Below, piece by piece: positions 2,668 through 54,314 of a stretch of DNA of 64,000 nt. The translations under genes were made by a program, and so were the position numbers. The DNA is taken from contig NZ_CP100448.1 in the NCBI RefSeq assembly GCF_024227715.1, positions 248,001 to 312,000 of the forward strand. Reading direction: 5' to 3'. This DNA is from Halomarina litorea (GTDB lineage Archaea; Halobacteriota; Halobacteria; Halobacteriales; Haloarculaceae). The notes under the pieces were generated by a model. It was not told where the DNA came from. It worked only from the letters and a program-made list of their open reading frames with translations, and searched no databases. The number at the start of each line of letters is the position of its first letter. The first letter of the stretch is position 1.

Positions 2668-5193
2668 ATGGCGGCCACCAGCGAGGGCGAGACCATCGAC
2701 CGCCCACTGCTCACGCCGGGGATGCTCCAGCGGCGGAACTACCAGCTGGAACTCGCCGAGGAGGCCTGCCGGACGCACACGCTCGTCTGTCTCCCGACGG
2801 GGCTGGGGAAGACGGCGGTGAGCCTGCTCGTCACCGCCCGCAGGCTCCACGAGGCCGGCGGCACGTCGCTCCTGCTCGCGCCGACGAAACCGCTCGTCCA
2901 GCAACACGCCGACTTCTACCGCGAGGCGCTGACGGTCCCCGACGACGAAATCGTCGTGTTCACCGGGGAGGTCCGCCCCGACGACCGGGCCGAACTGTGG
3001 GAGTCCGCGCGCGTCGTCGTCGCCACGCCGCAGGTGGTCGAGAACGACCTCGTGGGCAACCGCATCTCGCTCGAAGGCGTCACCCATCTCACCTTCGACG
3101 AGTGCCACCGGGCGACGGGCGACTACGCGTACAACTACATCGCCGAGCGCTACCACGCCGACTGCGGGGAGCGACGCTCCCCGGGCAACCGGAACGCTCC
3201 GCGTTCCGGTGACGCCGCCGACCCCCTCGTGACCGGGATGAGCGCCTCACCGGGCGGCGACGAGGAGGAGATACTCACCGTCTGTGAGAACCTCGGTCTG
3301 CGCGAGGTGGCGGTGATGACCGAGGACGACTCCGACGTGAGCGAGTACACCCACAAGACGGAGGTGGAGTGGGAGCGCGTCGAACTGCCCGAGGAGGTCA
3401 TCGAGATACGCGACGCGCTGAACGAGGTCATCTCCGACCGACTGGAGAAGCTGAAGGGACTGGGCGTCACGAACTCCACCAGCCCGGACATGTCCCAGCG
3501 CGATTTGAACAAGATTCGCGCGGAACTCCAGCGGATGATCAACGCCGACCAGTCGGAGGGGTATCAGGGGATGTCCGCGCACGCGGAGATAATGAAGCTC
3601 CGGCGGGCGGTCGAACTCGTCGAGACGCAGTCCGTCGAGTCCACCCGGCGGTACTTCGAGCGCCAGCGCAACGCGGCCCGGTCGTCTGGCGCGTCGAAGG
3701 CCGCCCAGCGGTTCGTCTCCGACCCGCGCGTCCAGGAGGCGATGCGGCGGGCAGAGTCCTACGACGACCTCCACCCGAAGTTCCGCCGGGCGCGCATCCT
3801 CCTCGCCCAGACGCTGGGTATCGAGGGCGGTCAGCGCGTCATCGTGTTCACCGAGTCCCGGGACACCGCCGAGACGCTGACCGAGTTCTTCGGCGGGCAC
3901 TTCGAGACGCGCAAGTTCGTCGGGCAGGGCGACAAGGAGGGTTCCGACGGGATGACCCAGAAACAGCAACAGGAGACGCTCGACGCCTTCCGGGCCGGCG
4001 AGTTCGAGGTGCTGGTCTCCACGAGCGTCGCCGAGGAGGGACTGGACGTCCCGGAGGTGGACCTCGTGCTGTTCTACGAACCCGTCCCGAAGGGCATCCG
4101 CGCCATCCAGCGCAAGGGTCGGACCGGCCGGCAGACCGAGGGGAAGGTCCACGTCCTTCTCGCGGAGGACACGCGCGACGAGGCGTACTTCTGGATCTCT
4201 CGGCGCGAGGAGAAGCGCATGGAGGAGGAACTGCGCTCGCTGAAGGGGATGGCCGGCGAGGTGAACGCCGAACTCGGACAGGCAGGCCTCGACGCCTTCG
4301 AGAGCGCGGCACCCGAGGAAACCGGAGGAGACGAGGACGGGACGCCCGCGAACGCGGAGGCGGACGGCGGCGCCACGGACGAGGAACCGGCGGCCGCACC
4401 CCACGACGGCCAGTCCGGGCTGGACTCCTTCGCGGCACCACCCGACGAACCCGACGACGGGGACGAGGAGACGACCGGCGCCGAGTCCGAGGCCGGCGGC
4501 GAGGAACCCGAGGGCACCGTCGAGACGGCCCGCGGCGACGGCGACACCGTGGAGATCGTCGCCGACCAGCGCGAACTCGACGCGACCATCGCGCGCGACC
4601 TCTCGACGCGCGAGGGCATCGAGACGCGACTGGAGACGCTGGCAGTGGGCGACTACGTCCTCTCGGACAGGGTGGTGGTCGAGCGCAAGTCCGTCGCCGA
4701 CTTCCTCGATACGCTCACCGGCGGCGACCGCTCGATGTTCGAGCAGGTGAAAGACGCCGCGCGGCACTACTCGCGGCCCGTCGTCGTCATCGAGGGCGAC
4801 CGCCTCTACGAGGAGCGCAACGTCCACCCCAACGCCATCCGAGGGGCCATCTCCGCCCTCGCGGTGGACTTCGGGGCCTCGGTGCTGCGGACGACCGACC
4901 AGAAGGACACCGCGGACCTGCTGGAGGTCATCGCCCGGCGCGAACAGGAAGAGTCGAAGCGCTCGGTGAACGTCCACGGCGAGAAGGCCGCCAAGACGCT
5001 CACCGAACAGCAGGAGTACGTGGTGAGCGCAATCGCGGACATCGGGCCGGTGACCGCACGCGCCCTCCTCGAAGAGTTCCGCACCGTCGAGGCGGTGATG
5101 ACCGCCCGCGAGGAGGACCTCCTGGAGGTGAAGGGCGTCGGGCAGGTCACGGCCGAGCGCATCCGGGAAGTCGTCGGGAGCGAGTACGAGTAG
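2668..5193 (+). CDS. hef: Hef: ERCC4/XPF-FANCM-type helicase-nuclease
   Basis: This 841-residue protein has the archaeal Hef layout. The SF2 helicase half has Walker A 'PTGLGKT' (about 43-49) and the DECH box (about 143-146), plus the motif VI region 'QRKGRTGR'. An acidic low-complexity linker (about 545-620) follows. The C-terminal half has an XPF-type nuclease domain with 'ERKSVADFL' (about 672) and a tandem helix-hairpin-helix ending 'VKGVGQVTAERIREV'. Hef processes stalled forks and branched DNA, and in haloarchaea it offers an alternative to Hjc for fork restart. A 16-residue insertion (about 166-181) lies in the helicase half and is encoded by two DNA hairpins (annotated separately). 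The ATG at 2668 is preceded by a short leader. Confidence 0.93.
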   Translation: MAATSEGETIDRPLLTPGMLQRRNYQLELAEEACRTHTLVCLPTGLGKTAVSLLVTARRLHEAGGTSLLLAPTKPLVQQHADFYREALTVPDDEIVVFTGEVRPDDRAELWESARVVVATPQVVENDLVGNRISLEGVTHLTFDECHRATGDYAYNYIAERYHADCGERRSPGNRNAPRSGDAADPLVTGMSASPGGDEEEILTVCENLGLREVAVMTEDDSDVSEYTHKTEVEWERVELPEEVIEIRDALNEVISDRLEKLKGLGVTNSTSPDMSQRDLNKIRAELQRMINADQSEGYQGMSAHAEIMKLRRAVELVETQSVESTRRYFERQRNAARSSGASKAAQRFVSDPRVQEAMRRAESYDDLHPKFRRARILLAQTLGIEGGQRVIVFTESRDTAETLTEFFGGHFETRKFVGQGDKEGSDGMTQKQQQETLDAFRAGEFEVLVSTSVAEEGLDVPEVDLVLFYEPVPKGIRAIQRKGRTGRQTEGKVHVLLAEDTRDEAYFWISRREEKRMEEELRSLKGMAGEVNAELGQAGLDAFESAAPEETGGDEDGTPANAEADGGATDEEPAAAPHDGQSGLDSFAAPPDEPDDGDEETTGAESEAGGEEPEGTVETARGDGDTVEIVADQRELDATIARDLSTREGIETRLETLAVGDYVLSDRVVVERKSVADFLDTLTGGDRSMFEQVKDAARHYSRPVVVIEGDRLYEERNVHPNAIRGAISALAVDFGASVLRTTDQKDTADLLEVIARREQEESKRSVNVHGEKAAKTLTEQQEYVVSAIADIGPVTARALLEEFRTVEAVMTAREEDLLEVKGVGQVTAERIREVVGSEYE
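3163..3210 (+). repeat. in-frame palindromic insertion in hef (two hairpins)
   Basis: A 48-base insert (16 codons) is flanked on both sides by GAC. It holds two perfect inverted repeats. At 3166-3182, a 7-bp stem GGGGAGC closes a GAC loop. At 3188-3210, a 10-bp stem starting ACCGGAACGC closes a TCC loop. Removing it leaves '...YHAD/AADPLVTGMSASPGG', which reads smoothly as the helicase domain. The same kind of stem with the same loop triplets occurs in leuS. Confidence 0.75.
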
Positions 5194-44204: not shown

Positions 44205-44636
44205 ATGGTCGGACCGGCCCGCATCTTCAAACTCGCCGACGTCGCCCAGCAGATGGTCGGCGGCTTCCTCCTCGCCGGGCCGTTCGTCGTCACCGAGGAG
44301 GTGTGGGTCCTCGCGACATCGATGAGCTGGATACAGGGCGTGTTCACCGTCGCCATCGTCTTCGCCATCGGGTACGGGGCGCTGTACAAGGCCGACGCGG
44401 ACCGGGACCCCGACCGGGAGACGGAAGTCGCCGGGGTCCCCGTCCGGTTCATCTCGCTGATGACGGTGTCCTTCGGATCGGTCGCGTTGCTCGCACTGGT
44501 CTTCGACGCCCCGGGTACCTTCCTCTCGGAACGGGGCCTGACCCAGCTGGAACAACTCGCCGTCAGCGTCCGCGCCATCAGCGTCGGCGCGGTGTTCGCC
44601 GTCGTGGGCGCGGCGACGGCCGACTCCGTGTTCTGA
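44205..44636 (+). CDS. DUF2391-like small membrane protein
   Basis: This 143-residue membrane protein has four helices: 'QQMVGGFLLAGPFVVTEEVWVLA' at the start, then 'VFTVAIVFAIGYGALYK', 'FISLMTVSFGSVALLALVF' and 'VSVRAISVGAVFAVVGAATAD'. It resembles the DUF2391/TIGR02587 family of haloarchaeal integral membrane proteins with no known role. ATG 44205 follows a T-run with 'GCGTTTTAGG' about 30 bases upstream as a TATA-like element. It is divergent from the methyltransferase. Confidence 0.65.
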   Translation: MVGPARIFKLADVAQQMVGGFLLAGPFVVTEEVWVLATSMSWIQGVFTVAIVFAIGYGALYKADADRDPDRETEVAGVPVRFISLMTVSFGSVALLALVFDAPGTFLSERGLTQLEQLAVSVRAISVGAVFAVVGAATADSVF

Positions 44637-44973
44637 ACGACCTTTTACGCTGCGCTCGGGGCGGCTTCGCCGCCCCTCGCTCGGTGAAAGGCGAGCAAAA
44701 GCACTCCCTCACCCGTGAGAGCCATCGGCTCAAGCGGGTTCAGTCGGCCCGCTCGCTCCGGGAGACTCGCGTCGCTCGTCTCCCGTGCTCCCGTTCGCTT
44801 CGTCGCCGGCGCTCGCGCCGGCTTCCGGCGGGACCTTCGGTCCCGCCCAGCTCACGGGAACTTCACTCGCTCGGGGCACAACACGGTACCAGACCACTTC
44901 GTTCGACGAGATTCCGCAACCGCTAGCGGTCCAGCGCACTCCCCCGCGAGCGAGTGAGCCGGGAGGACCCCCT
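44637..44973. repeat. 337-base intergenic cluster of hairpins
   Basis: No gene is evident. Four inverted repeats lie here. 44658-44676: 8-bp stem GGGGCGGC, loop TTC. 44760-44784: 7-bp stem GGGAGAC, 11-base loop. 44805-44822: 8-bp stem GCCGGCGC, loop TC. 44828-44846: 8-bp stem GCGGGACC, loop TTC. ACTCGCTC follows at 44864-44871 and also occurs in the leuS insert and beside tRNA-Ser. The region separates two convergent genes. Confidence 0.75.
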
Positions 44974-45555
44974 TCAAGAGAAGTCGCAGGTGACGGTGCC
45001 GTCCTCGGTGAGGTGGATGACGCCGTCGAAGAGGTCGCGGTAGTCGTCGAGGACCGACTGGTCGTGAACCTCCTCGGCGACGTGGAACAGGCCGATGGCG
45101 TCGTGTTCGCGCAGGAGGTCGAGGATCTGCTCGACGGCCTCGCGCGTCCGTTCCTCGTCGGCGTAGTAGGCCATCTCGGTGACGGAGTCGACGGAGATGC
45201 GGAGTTTGCCGTCGTGGGTCTCGAGGAACGTGCGGATAGCCTCGACCATCCCGTCGAGGTCGTCCGGCGAGGAGACGTACCGGACGTTGTCGCTGGACCG
45301 TCGCGAGTAGCCACGCTCGATGGAGAGGGTGTCGAGGATGGTGGCGCGGGACTCGTCGACCTCGTAGTACTCCAGCTTCTGCTGGACCTCGCGGGCGGTG
45401 GTGCGCGTCGAGAGGATGAACAGGTGGTCGGTGTCGGTCTTGAAGAAGTCGGTGTCGAGGCGGTCGGTCTCGCCGGTACTGGGGTGGAGGAGCATGATGC
45501 CGGTCCCCTCGGGGACGGTCTCGGGGGCGTTCTCGATGGCGAGTTCGTAGTCCAT
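44974..45555 (-). CDS. RecA/KaiC-like fold protein without Walker A
   Basis: This 193-residue protein is widespread in haloarchaea. Its alternating strands and helices ('GIMLLHPSTGETDRLDTDFF', 'LFILSTRTTAREVQQKLEYY', 'KLRISVDSVTEMAYYA', 'AIGLFHVAEEVHDQSVLDDY', 'DGVIHLTEDGTVTCDF') resemble a KaiC/RecA-type core. The GxxxxGK[ST] loop is missing, so it is probably not an ATPase. It may act in signalling (guess). ATG 45555. The downstream side ends at the hairpin cluster. Confidence 0.6.
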   Translation of the reverse strand: MDYELAIENAPETVPEGTGIMLLHPSTGETDRLDTDFFKTDTDHLFILSTRTTAREVQQKLEYYEVDESRATILDTLSIERGYSRRSSDNVRYVSSPDDLDGMVEAIRTFLETHDGKLRISVDSVTEMAYYADEERTREAVEQILDLLREHDAIGLFHVAEEVHDQSVLDDYRDLFDGVIHLTEDGTVTCDFS

Positions 45556-51560: not shown

Positions 51561-54314
51561 TCAGTCGATGCGGATTGCGGGCCGACCGGGACGGGCCTTC
51601 TTCGCCACGTCCTCGTCGGCGTCCTCCGCTCGCGAGACGACCACCTCGGCGTCGAACTCGCGGCGAATCAGCCACGCCGCGCGCTGGAGCGTCTCGAACT
51701 CGCGGTCCGGCGAGAGCGCGGGCGTCAGCGACTGGCGTTCTTCCTGTAAGTCCTGCCCGTAGTCGGCGGCCGCGTCGCCGTGCTGTCGAATCTCTTCCTC
51801 TTGCATCAGTTCGGAGATGACGTTCGGCGCGTCACTCTCGATGGCGATATCCAGCGCCCGGTGCTTCCACTCGGGCGCGACGACCACCTCGACGCGTTCG
51901 GGGTCCTCGATGCCCGCCACGTCGATGATCTGACGCACGTCGCTGCGAGTGTTCTCGACCAGTCTGCGCTCCCGGTCGTGGTCTGCGGTGTCGCTCTCGG
52001 GTTCGGGGAAGGGCGCCTCCGCGACGAATCCCGCTCGCGGTTCCCCATCGTCACCGTCGTCGCGCGGCGACGCCGCGCGACTGTCCGCGGAACCTCGTTC
52101 CGCGCTACTCGCTCGTTCCGAGGCGCTCCGCGCCTCGCGGCCCCCCAGCAGTTCCCACAGTTCCTCGCTGATGTGGGGCGTGACGGGGGCGAACAGGCGC
52201 ACGGCCACTCGGAGACCGCGCTCGAACGTCTCGGCGTGGACCGCGTCGGCGTACTCGCGGTAGTTGCGCAGGAGGCCGACCAGTTCGCGCGTCTCGCGCA
52301 GGGCGGTGTTGAACGTCAGCGACTCGTAGTCGGCGCGGGCGACGGCGATGGTGGCGTCTATCTCGCGGGCGACGTACTCCGCGATGTCGTCCTTCTCACC
52401 GGTGGCCGCCCCGGAGTCGAAGCTCTCGACCGTCTCGTGGAGGCGCTGGAGGAACGCGTGGGCCGACTGGACGCCCTTGTCGGTCCAGTCGAAGTCCCGC
52501 TCCGGCTGGGCGGCCTCCATCGTGAACAGGCGGGCGGTGTCCGCGCCGTACTCCGAGACGATGGCCTGCGGAGAGACGACGTTGCCCTTCGACTTCGACA
52601 TCGCCTCGCCGTCCAACTGGACCATCCCCTGTGCGAGCAGGTTCGTGAACGGTTCGCGGTGTGCCAGCCCCTCGTGGTCGGCCAGCACCTTCGTGAAGAA
52701 CCGGGAGTACAGCAGGTGCATCACGGCGTGTTCGATGCCGCCGACGTAGCGGTCGACGGGCATCCAGTCGTTCGCCCGGTCGCGGTCGAACGGCGCGGTG
52801 TCGAGGTCCGGCGAGACGTAGCGCAGGAAGTACCACGAGGAGTCGACGAACGTGTCCATCGTGTCCGTCTCGCGGGTGGCCGCGCCGCCGCAGTCGGGAC
52901 AGGTCGTCGCCTTCCACTCCTCGGCCTCGTCGAGGGGGTTCCCGGTCGTGTTGATGAACTCGGGCAGTTCGACCGGCAGGTCCTCCTCCGGGACGACGAC
53001 GGGGCCGCAGTCCTCGCAGTGAACGACGGGGATGGGCGTCCCCCAGTAGCGCTGGCGGGAGATGCCCCAATCTCGCAGTCGGTACTGGGTGGCCGCCTCC
53101 GCGCCCTCGGTGTCGGCGGTGATGCGCTCGCGGGCCGTCTCGCTGTCCAGTCCGTCGTACTCGCCGGAGTTGACGAGGACGCCGTCGTCCGTGTAGGCCC
53201 CCTCGCTCACGTCGGGCATCTCGGGCGTGCCGTCCTCGCCCTCGGGGGCGACGACGGGGACGACGTCGATACCCATCTTCGTGGCGAAGGCGTGGTCCCG
53301 GTCGTCGTGGCCGGGGACGCCCATCAGCGCGCCCGTCCCCACGTCCGAGAGGACGAAGTCCGCGACGTAGACGGGGACGTCCTCGCCCGTGACGGGGTTG
53401 GTCGCGACGAGGTCCGTCGCGACGCCGTTGGGTTCGTCGCCCTCCGGGTCGGCCACCTCGTTGACGAACTCCCGGACGTCCTCGTCCTCCTCCGCGAGTT
53501 CCTGCGCGATGGGGTGGTCGGGGGCCAGCGCGAAGAACGTCGCGCCGAAGGCGGTGTCCGCGCGCGTGGTGAACGCCTCGACGGTGCCGTGGTCCTCGAT
53601 GGAGAACGGCAGTCGCGTGCCGTGTTGGCGGCCGATCCAGTTGCGCTGCATCCCCCGCACGGAGTCCGGCCACCCCTCCAACCGGTCGATGTCGTCGACC
53701 AGTTCGTCCGCGTACTCGGTGATCTTCAGGAACCACTGGGACAGTTCGCGGGTCTCGACGGGCGTGTCACACCGCCAGCAGAGTTCGGCCTCGCCCTCGA
53801 CCTGTTCGTCGGCCAGCACCGTCTCGCAGGAGGGACACCAGTTGACCTCGGCGTCACGCTGTTCGACGAGGCCCTCCTCGTGGAACCGGGCGAACAGCCA
53901 CTGGTTCCAGCGGTAGTACTCGGGCTTGCAGGTGGTGACCTCGCGCTCCCAGTCGTAGCCGAATCCCATCGACTCCATCTGGCCTTTCATCGTCTCGATG
54001 CAGTCGAACGTCCACGTCGCGGGGTCGCTGTCGTGTTCCTTGGCGGCGTTCTCGGCGGGCAGGCCGAAGGCGTCCCAGCCCATCGGGTGGAGGACGTGGT
54101 CGCCACACATCCGGCGGTAGCGGGCGTACGCGTCCGTGATGGTGTAGTTCCGGACGTGTCCCATGTGGAGTTCCCCGGAGGGGTAGGGGTACATCCCGAG
54201 GACGTACGTCGGGTCCTCGGCGTCGTCGGGGACGTGGTACACCCCCGCGTCGGTCCAGCGGTCCTGCCAGGTTCGTTCGACCCTCGTGTGGTCGTAGCCT
54301 CGTTGGTCCTGCAT
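51561..54314 (-). CDS. leuS: leucyl-tRNA synthetase, bacterial-type
   Basis: This 917-residue class I synthetase has 'YPYPSGELHMGHVRNYT' (HIGH motif HMGH, about 42-50), 'HPMGWDAFGLPAENAAKEHD', an editing domain (about 230-400) and 'AMSKSKGNVVSP' (KMSKS). Two zinc-knuckle-like pairs (CPSC...CWRC and CEDC...CPDC) are visible. The sequence is of the bacterial LeuRS type, as in many haloarchaea. A 35-36-residue insertion (about 726-761) is made of palindromic DNA. ATG 54314. Confidence 0.93.
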   Translation of the reverse strand: MQDQRGYDHTRVERTWQDRWTDAGVYHVPDDAEDPTYVLGMYPYPSGELHMGHVRNYTITDAYARYRRMCGDHVLHPMGWDAFGLPAENAAKEHDSDPATWTFDCIETMKGQMESMGFGYDWEREVTTCKPEYYRWNQWLFARFHEEGLVEQRDAEVNWCPSCETVLADEQVEGEAELCWRCDTPVETRELSQWFLKITEYADELVDDIDRLEGWPDSVRGMQRNWIGRQHGTRLPFSIEDHGTVEAFTTRADTAFGATFFALAPDHPIAQELAEEDEDVREFVNEVADPEGDEPNGVATDLVATNPVTGEDVPVYVADFVLSDVGTGALMGVPGHDDRDHAFATKMGIDVVPVVAPEGEDGTPEMPDVSEGAYTDDGVLVNSGEYDGLDSETARERITADTEGAEAATQYRLRDWGISRQRYWGTPIPVVHCEDCGPVVVPEEDLPVELPEFINTTGNPLDEAEEWKATTCPDCGGAATRETDTMDTFVDSSWYFLRYVSPDLDTAPFDRDRANDWMPVDRYVGGIEHAVMHLLYSRFFTKVLADHEGLAHREPFTNLLAQGMVQLDGEAMSKSKGNVVSPQAIVSEYGADTARLFTMEAAQPERDFDWTDKGVQSAHAFLQRLHETVESFDSGAATGEKDDIAEYVAREIDATIAVARADYESLTFNTALRETRELVGLLRNYREYADAVHAETFERGLRVAVRLFAPVTPHISEELWELLGGREARSASERASSAERGSADSRAASPRDDGDDGEPRAGFVAEAPFPEPESDTADHDRERRLVENTRSDVRQIIDVAGIEDPERVEVVVAPEWKHRALDIAIESDAPNVISELMQEEEIRQHGDAAADYGQDLQEERQSLTPALSPDREFETLQRAAWLIRREFDAEVVVSRAEDADEDVAKKARPGRPAIRID
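52032..52137 (-). repeat. in-frame palindromic insertion in leuS (three hairpins)
   Basis: About 105 bases encode 'EARSASERASSAERGSADSR' and a following acidic stretch, between 'LWELLGG' and 'GFVAEAPFPE'. It contains three perfect inverted repeats. 52059-52081: 10-bp stem GTCGCGCGGC, loop GAC. 52086-52104: 8-bp stem CGCGGAAC, loop CTC. 52119-52137: 8-bp stem CGAGGCGC, loop TCC. ACTCGCTC lies between the last two. Confidence 0.75.

Follow-up and report, generated by a model that had tools for sequence, protein, structure and literature searches.

A REP-like two-hairpin unit nested in a dispersed, probably terminator-like element between convergent genes of Halomarina

Introduction

CGTC-tagged REPs (repetitive extragenic palindromes) have 3-nt tails, mostly CCA, and the available part of their description (Di Nocera et al., 2013; PMC3733652) places some of them inside palindromes and reports copies within genes for DNA repair and for tRNA synthetases. 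They are without a dedicated transposase, and no mobilising enzyme was known when they were described in 2013. In the text of that paper as available, "archaea" occurs twice, both times in the title of a reference, and "halo" is absent. A literature search, in the main of freely accessible papers, yielded no report of CGTC-type REPs in haloarchaea; REPs in archaea generally are treated in the accessible part of the RepRanger paper (PMC12306157). The nearest haloarchaeal elements that we found are the PATEs (palindrome-associated transposable elements) of Haloquadratum walsbyi and the small mobile repeats SMR-A of Haloquadratum (PMC3119063, excerpts). With regard to transcription, a T-stretch has been described at intergenic 3' ends in Haloferax volcanii, where T5C terminates about 95% of transcripts (PMC7237163, excerpts).

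Here we describe an intergenic region from a Halomarina genome of 3.88 Mb (G000 in our genome set). The window, a stretch of 64,000 nucleotides of this genome, was analysed as a whole, and positions refer to it unless a contig (C1) is named. We read the gap, with a probability of roughly 0.7, as a mosaic: a dispersed haloarchaeal 3'-end element (A-B-C), which would act as a terminator, and, nested in it, a REP-like mobile repeat of 47-51 bp, which may move by a single-strand route with an enzyme supplied in trans.

The intergenic region and its parts

The left gene (44205-44636, forward strand) has a weak match to the DUF2391 membrane protein family, and the right gene (44974-45555, reverse strand) is assigned to DUF7090, with an additional weak match to KaiC. 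Because the stop codon of the forward gene is at 44634-44636 and the reverse gene ends at 44974, the gap is convergent, as an earlier note made from the sequence alone had stated. That note had also described four GC-rich inverted repeats in about 190 bases, which are indeed found within 190 bp (44658-44847):

44658-44676: inverted repeat, 8-bp stem, 3-nt loop
44759-44785: inverted repeat, 8-bp stem, 11-nt loop
44805-44822: inverted repeat, 8-bp stem, 2-nt loop
44827-44847: inverted repeat, 9-bp stem, 3-nt loop

The further sequence that it mentioned, ACTCGCTC, is present at 44865-44872. Its suggestion to fold the region gave z values of -4.9 (forward strand) and -5.2 (reverse strand), and none of 100 shuffles folded as well on either strand. 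Over 452 kb of the genome, 64 intergenic hairpins (stem of at least 8 bp, loop of 2-8 nt) were counted, against 11-18 in five dinucleotide shuffles; at least three hairpins were found in 7 of 330 gaps, the present gap among them. An Rfam gathering search of the window returned two tRNAs and nothing else.

Further copies, for which the note had proposed to search, exist in the same genome: one matches at 93% over 190 bp (C1:921213) and one at 94% over 120 bp (C1:47808), and there are partial copies as well. The copies stop at differing positions, and thus gave a first hint that the gap is a mosaic. Its parts are as follows:

44638..44703, forward strand: module A of A-B-C, a degenerate copy, compared by eye with the same locus in G001, G006, and G007 and with C1:47957 and C1:921044, and backed by the family statistics; it consists of CGACCTTTTA, the variable hairpin GGGGCGGC-TTC-GCCGCCCC (44658-44676), an A-rich 3' arm, and GCAAAAGC
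44705..44758, forward strand: module B hairpin ACCCG ... GAGCC-ATC-GGCTC ... CGGGT, with linkers shared and stems different in G001, G006, and G007; the conserved linker TTCAGTCGGCCCGCTCGCTC in this interval runs into the left half of hairpin C
44759..44785, forward strand: simple hairpin with the 8-bp stem CGGGAGAC/GTCTCCCG and the 11-nt loop TCGCGTCGCTC, also present at C1:921213 and C1:47808
44789..44859, forward strand: three-way junction with the outer stem TCCCGT/ACGGGA (44789-44794 / 44854-44859); its loop TCGCTTC^GCTC is read as a target palindrome opened by the two-hairpin unit
44802..44849, forward strand: nested two-hairpin unit of 48 bp (model R1 match 44801-44853, 64.6 bits), composed of GTC, a first hairpin (GCCGGCGC TC GCGCCGGC), TTCC, a second hairpin (GGCGGGACC TTC GGTCCCGCC), and CA; its ends were set by analogy with empty and filled sites
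44863..44876, forward strand: right half of hairpin C, TCACTCGCTCGGGG, 3' of the nested insert
3163..3213, reverse strand: second copy of the unit in the window, a 51-bp in-frame insert in hef (2668-5193), which encodes the DNA-repair nuclease Hef

In the window, hairpin C is interrupted by the 27-bp simple hairpin and the three-way junction; it is unbroken at loci L177 and L197 and in G001, G006, and G007. The two inner hairpins of the junction and the TTCC(A) spacer were found again elsewhere. The gap is not, as the earlier note had considered, the full-length version of the element seen in hef: two unrelated dispersed elements are nested here, and hef has just the 51-bp two-hairpin unit.

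The outer element A-B-C

The outer element has the layout CCACCTTTTN-hairpin-N'AAAAGCTGGACCAAAAG, followed by two further hairpins, and begins directly after the stop codon of the left gene. The two genes are adjacent in five Halomarina genomes, and A-B-C is between them in four (the present one, G001, G006, and G007) and absent from G002. The four share one design: CCACCTTTTA a few nucleotides past the stop codon, a species-specific hairpin, TAAAAGCTGGACCAAAAG and ATTCCCTCACC, another hairpin of variable sequence, and GGTTCAGTCACCCCGCTCGCTC ahead of the third.

With at most one mismatch allowed, 22 of 59 genomes contain the 17-mer AAAAGCTGGACCAAAAG, at 109 places in total; a reversed-pattern control gave 2 matches. 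From fetched loci, a subset of these 109 places, 95 distinct A-B-C instances were read; a looser motif rule was applied to four loci (L002, L022, L023, and L027). A CCTTTT-type run is upstream in 81 of the 95. Between both runs, hairpin A forms a perfect stem of at least 7 in 72% of these 81 (10% of shuffles), with 69 distinct stem sequences. The base that follows TTTT and the one that precedes AAAA are complementary in 69 of 78 cases (GC 37, AT 19, TA 13), the corresponding shuffled control having a mean of 28.8 and a maximum of 40. The outer pair covaries as well, copies that start with CGACC ending with GCTCG and the others combining CCACC with GCTGG. Exceptions amount to 24 of the 95 instances: 14 are without the upstream T-run, and 10 have hairpin A stems of 4 or less. 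The compensatory changes that the earlier note had asked for are thus found in this layer, and they recur in the inner unit (see below).

Within Halomarina, 43 of 57 instances follow a gene on the same strand, 38 of these at most 40 nt from the stop codon and mostly 3-9 nt from it; a gene on the opposite strand precedes 14. Two instances were called as following a tRNA gene, and three more were so judged by eye. The strict form of module A (CCACCTTTTA...TAAAAGCTGG) was restricted to Halomarina among 20 relatives (7 of 8 Halomarina genomes), the window copy being degenerate in this module. Specificity for convergent gaps was considered and rejected: the 57 instances comprise 18 tandem, 12 convergent, 9 reverse tandem, and 1 divergent arrangement, and 17 without a reachable downstream gene.

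The outer element is probably a terminator or 3'-end element. CCACCTTTT, located a few nucleotides past the stop codon, pairs with AAAAGCTGG across a hairpin, with one mismatch, so that either DNA strand has a T-run in front of the hairpin. Its placement and covariation, together with the T-stretch data from Haloferax volcanii, lead us to read module A as a putative two-way transcription terminator. A-B-C would stop transcripts of the upstream gene, and of both genes where these converge; transcripts would then be expected to have their 3' ends at the CCTTTT runs, and those from the opposite strand at CCAGCTTTT. The proposal of a terminator array or structured RNA, one of those made in the earlier note, is thus plausible for the outer element, judging from T-runs 3-9 nt past stop codons and from covarying stems. 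A-B-C is a candidate two-way 3'-end signal for haloarchaeal genes.

Two side observations concern this family. At L172/L200 (G045:C1:787099, 787208, and 787317), the A-B-C motif forms a tandem array with a period of 109 bp. A second two-hairpin type, (C/T)ATC-(ACCAGAA..TTCTGGT)-TAGCA-(G(C/T)CAGAA..TTCTG(G/A)C)-GA, was seen at L002 (1389-1505), L287, and L293; it is in tandem between the GCTGGA and CAAAAGG of an A-B-C element and also occurs, with differing stems, 3' of two TnpB genes.

The inner two-hairpin unit

The inner unit has 47-51 bp and the structure GTC-hp1-TTCCA-hp2-NCN. Scanning named genomes with a pattern yielded 72 matches, 27 of them haloarchaeal. A clean hp1 is present in 22 of the 27 haloarchaeal matches (5 have hp1 stems under 6 bp) versus 4 of the 45 others. 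For the set of 32 copies used below, seven rows with imperfect hp1, some representing the same locus twice, were left out; 26 of the 32 rows and two more copies make up alignment A2 (28 copies, model R1).

Hairpin hp1 covaries in A2 (0.165 versus 0.065 shuffled, 0 of 500; slid controls at most 0.057). Its first pair is GC in 16 and AU in 12 copies, and the second is CG in 28 of 28. Its stems have about 5-10 bp, and its loops are short, often 2-3 nt. Hairpin hp2 is nearly invariant in A2, a set collected by a pattern that fixes hp2; since it varies so little there, its pairing in A2 rests on identity. Copies in genome G145 carry a different hp2 (GAGGGACC/GGTCCCTC), which is outside the reach of the pattern and was found by R1. 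Hairpin hp2 is not an inverted tagged copy of hp1, its 3' side being NCGGCTC and not GACG, and is 3 nt from the end of the unit.

The tag at positions -4 to -1 of hp1 reads C (96%), G (93%), T (100%), C (96%) in the 32 copies, and TGTC in G145; at resolved sites, its first base, C (or T), is supplied by the target. Each letter of the TTCCA that follows hp1 is conserved to at least 90% in A2, most members of which were found by a pattern that fixes TTCCA. Among the G145 copies, found by the model, the tails are TTCCA, TGCCA, TGCTA, TGCTG, and TGCTT.

Of 146 genomes of the order, 76 contain the unit according to the covariance model R1 (E<=0.001), with up to 37 copies per genome; G145 has about 37. 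At E<=0.01, it was found in 7 of 8 Halomarina genomes, 19 times in the present one. The 34 Halomarina copies that were placed are in tandem (13), convergent (11), and divergent (6) gaps or intragenic (3), with 1 unclassified. An association with tRNA genes was rejected as a rule: in the loci scanned with ARAGORN, a tRNA was called only at L004/L093, L083, and L094, and the unit at L005/L097 is preceded by a tRNA-like sequence without an ARAGORN call. With tRNAs at so few of the scanned loci, tRNA ends are one target among several. At L004 (1264-1600), L005 (1340-1720), and L083, units follow tRNA genes or tRNA-like sequences and are beside partial duplications of tRNA 3' ends; some units at these loci are also present as inverted copies that form hairpins.

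Insertion sites

Empty and filled versions of the same site delimit the unit. For a small zinc-ribbon gene, 20 of 24 loci were compared (L281 is the downstream part of L278): 17 have the empty site (GCAGC|GCTCACG), two contain an insert of 49 bp, and one is uninformative. In hef, the present species has 51 bp (17 codons) in frame between CACGCCGAC and GCCGCC; in the survey of 17 genomes, including the present one and with G024 left out of inspection, the insert is absent from all 15 inspected relatives. This site also allows a 3-bp duplication of GTC. In G145, one host repeat accounts for two further sites: some of its copies carry the unit at T^GCTCGG, and others have it at GACTCC^CTCGCG, oppositely oriented and 49 or 51 bp long. 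The insertion is thus clean and without a consistent target duplication, and these sites define the mobile unit as GTC-hp1-TNCCA-hp2-NCN. The host repeat in G145 (L373-L391) is itself dispersed and about 150 bp long; the unit occupies one or the other of two sites in it, with both orientations represented.

The earlier note had likened the hairpins of the gap to inserts in hef and leuS. This holds for hef, where R1, the model of the gap unit, matches 3159-3214 (reverse strand, 30 bits, E 1.2e-5), and is unproven for leuS, whose hairpins are unmatched by R1. In leuS (51561-54314), three hairpins at 52059-52137 (reverse strand) are in the region coding for the anticodon-binding part of LeuRS, with CGTC ahead of them on the antisense strand.

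The sequences flanking the unit pair with each other (outer stem of at least 6) in 13 of the 32 copies, versus 7.5% with mismatched flanks. The offsets are mostly (7,4) or (8,4); 7-8 nt on one side and 4 nt on the other place the unit in an 11-12-nt loop, TCGCTTC^GCTC. For 19 of the 32 units, the outer stem is under 6 and no palindrome is recognisable. A de novo search of 452 kb for simple hairpins with a TCGCTTCGCTC loop returned only 4 strict cases, all intergenic and none coding, which is insufficient for a claim. The preferred position of the unit is thus often C/T^GCTC, within the 11-nt loop of a pre-existing hairpin, which it turns into a three-way junction. Recognition may require the unit to be single-stranded and folded, and joining may be to the loop of a target that is folded as well; its movement would then proceed through a single-stranded hairpin intermediate, with the enzyme acting in trans.

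Alternative explanations

The nested unit might be an ultra-short PATE, in which the two terminal hairpins of an IS605/IS1341 transposon, left and right, have become fused and which TnpA mobilises in trans. PATEs have near-terminal palindromes, without terminal inverted repeats or target duplication, and a 52-bp terminal-only form has been described (PMC3119063, excerpts); TnpB genes are common, being found in 7 of 7 Halomarina genomes searched, with 13 PF07282 matches in the present genome. Against these points, Y1_Tnp (the IS200/IS605-type transposase) has no match in the present genome, which is one of 10 without a match among 17 unit-bearing genomes. The hp2 hairpins are missing from all 26 TnpB 3' ends inspected in Halomarina, and when the core was compared with 30 TnpB loci by BLAST, the only matches were 11-13 nt long. 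PATEs, moreover, keep 20-50 bp beyond the palindrome according to the same excerpts, whereas hp2 nearly reaches the end of the unit. We consider this explanation unlikely, and the missing Y1_Tnp matches and the TnpB 3' ends lead us to reject an origin from RAYT/IS605.

It is improbable, too, that selection maintains the whole cluster, two-hairpin unit included, as one functional structured RNA or as a bidirectional terminator. Such a view would account for the strong folding, for covariation in both layers, and for the majority of A-B-C copies being just 3' of stop codons; however, the unit is found without A-B-C, within genes, and at new sites, and A-B-C is found without the unit at the same locus in three congeners (G001, G006, and G007). 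That the hairpins are chance palindromes of a GC-rich genome, in which coding DNA is also hairpin-rich (0.50 per kb versus 0.86 per kb intergenic), is refuted by near-identical dispersed copies and compensatory changes, and by folding z values near -5.

Comparison with known systems

Like the haloarchaeal T-stretch terminators (PMC7237163, excerpts), A-B-C has a T-run soon after the stop codon and is intergenic. Unlike them, it is long, conserved, dispersed, and covarying, has a T-run on either strand, and includes two additional hairpins.

The inner unit, in turn, shares with PATEs (PMC3119063, excerpts) near-terminal palindromes, the lack of terminal inverted repeats and of a consistent target duplication, and a non-coding nature, and its length of about 50 bp is similar to that of their terminal-only form. 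It differs in that its hairpins are almost at the extreme ends and in that the palindromes of PATEs are related to those of IS605-type transposons, whereas no link to IS605 ends or TnpA was found for the unit. SMR-A, as described in the same excerpts, is likewise short and non-coding, inserts into palindromes without target duplication, and is mobilised in an unknown way; with about 110 bp and prominent terminal inverted repeats, it is nevertheless distinct from a unit of 47-51 bp that ends with GTC and NCN.

The comparison with the CGTC-REPs is based on the available part of their description (PMC3733652). Both have the CGTC (or TGTC) tag 5' of the stem, which in the CGTC-REPs is terminal and unpaired, with TGTC and CCTC as variants, and both have the CCA tail; both are mostly intergenic, at 3' ends, in tandem or convergent gaps, with few intragenic copies; and both have inserted into repair genes and into palindromic targets. 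The CGTC-REPs have no dedicated transposase, and the genome analysed here is without a Y1_Tnp match in a search that covered the Y1 family. Stems of 8-9 bp and loops of 4-5 nt in the CGTC-REPs compare with about 5-10 bp and often 2-3 nt in hp1. The first two stem pairs are AT in the CGTC-REPs, but GC or AU followed by CG in the haloarchaeal unit, and head-to-head dimers, which predominate among the former, are replaced by a second fixed hairpin in the latter. Finally, CGTC-REPs are bacterial and the present unit is haloarchaeal. Because tag, tail, placement, and intragenic copies agree while the AT pairs and dimers do not, we describe the unit as working like a CGTC-REP, the superfamily to which it is closest, rather than as a member.

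On balance, we regard the inner unit as a REP-type repeat in a haloarchaeal variant, embedded in an element that resembles a terminator. A more far-reaching idea, which we put forward tentatively and hold to be possible rather than probable, is that a REP-like unit of some 50 bp, widespread in haloarchaea, enters exposed hairpin loops with no need of a Y1 transposase, turns palindromes into three-way junctions, and shares one as yet undiscovered single-strand mechanism with the bacterial CGTC-REPs across two domains. Given resolved empty and filled sites, a species-specific insertion in hef, a loop preference, and tractable members among the haloarchaea, the movement of transposase-less palindromic repeats becomes testable. 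Relative or look-alike, the unit is a compact counterpart of the bacterial CGTC-REP in the haloarchaea, a group with genetically tractable members.
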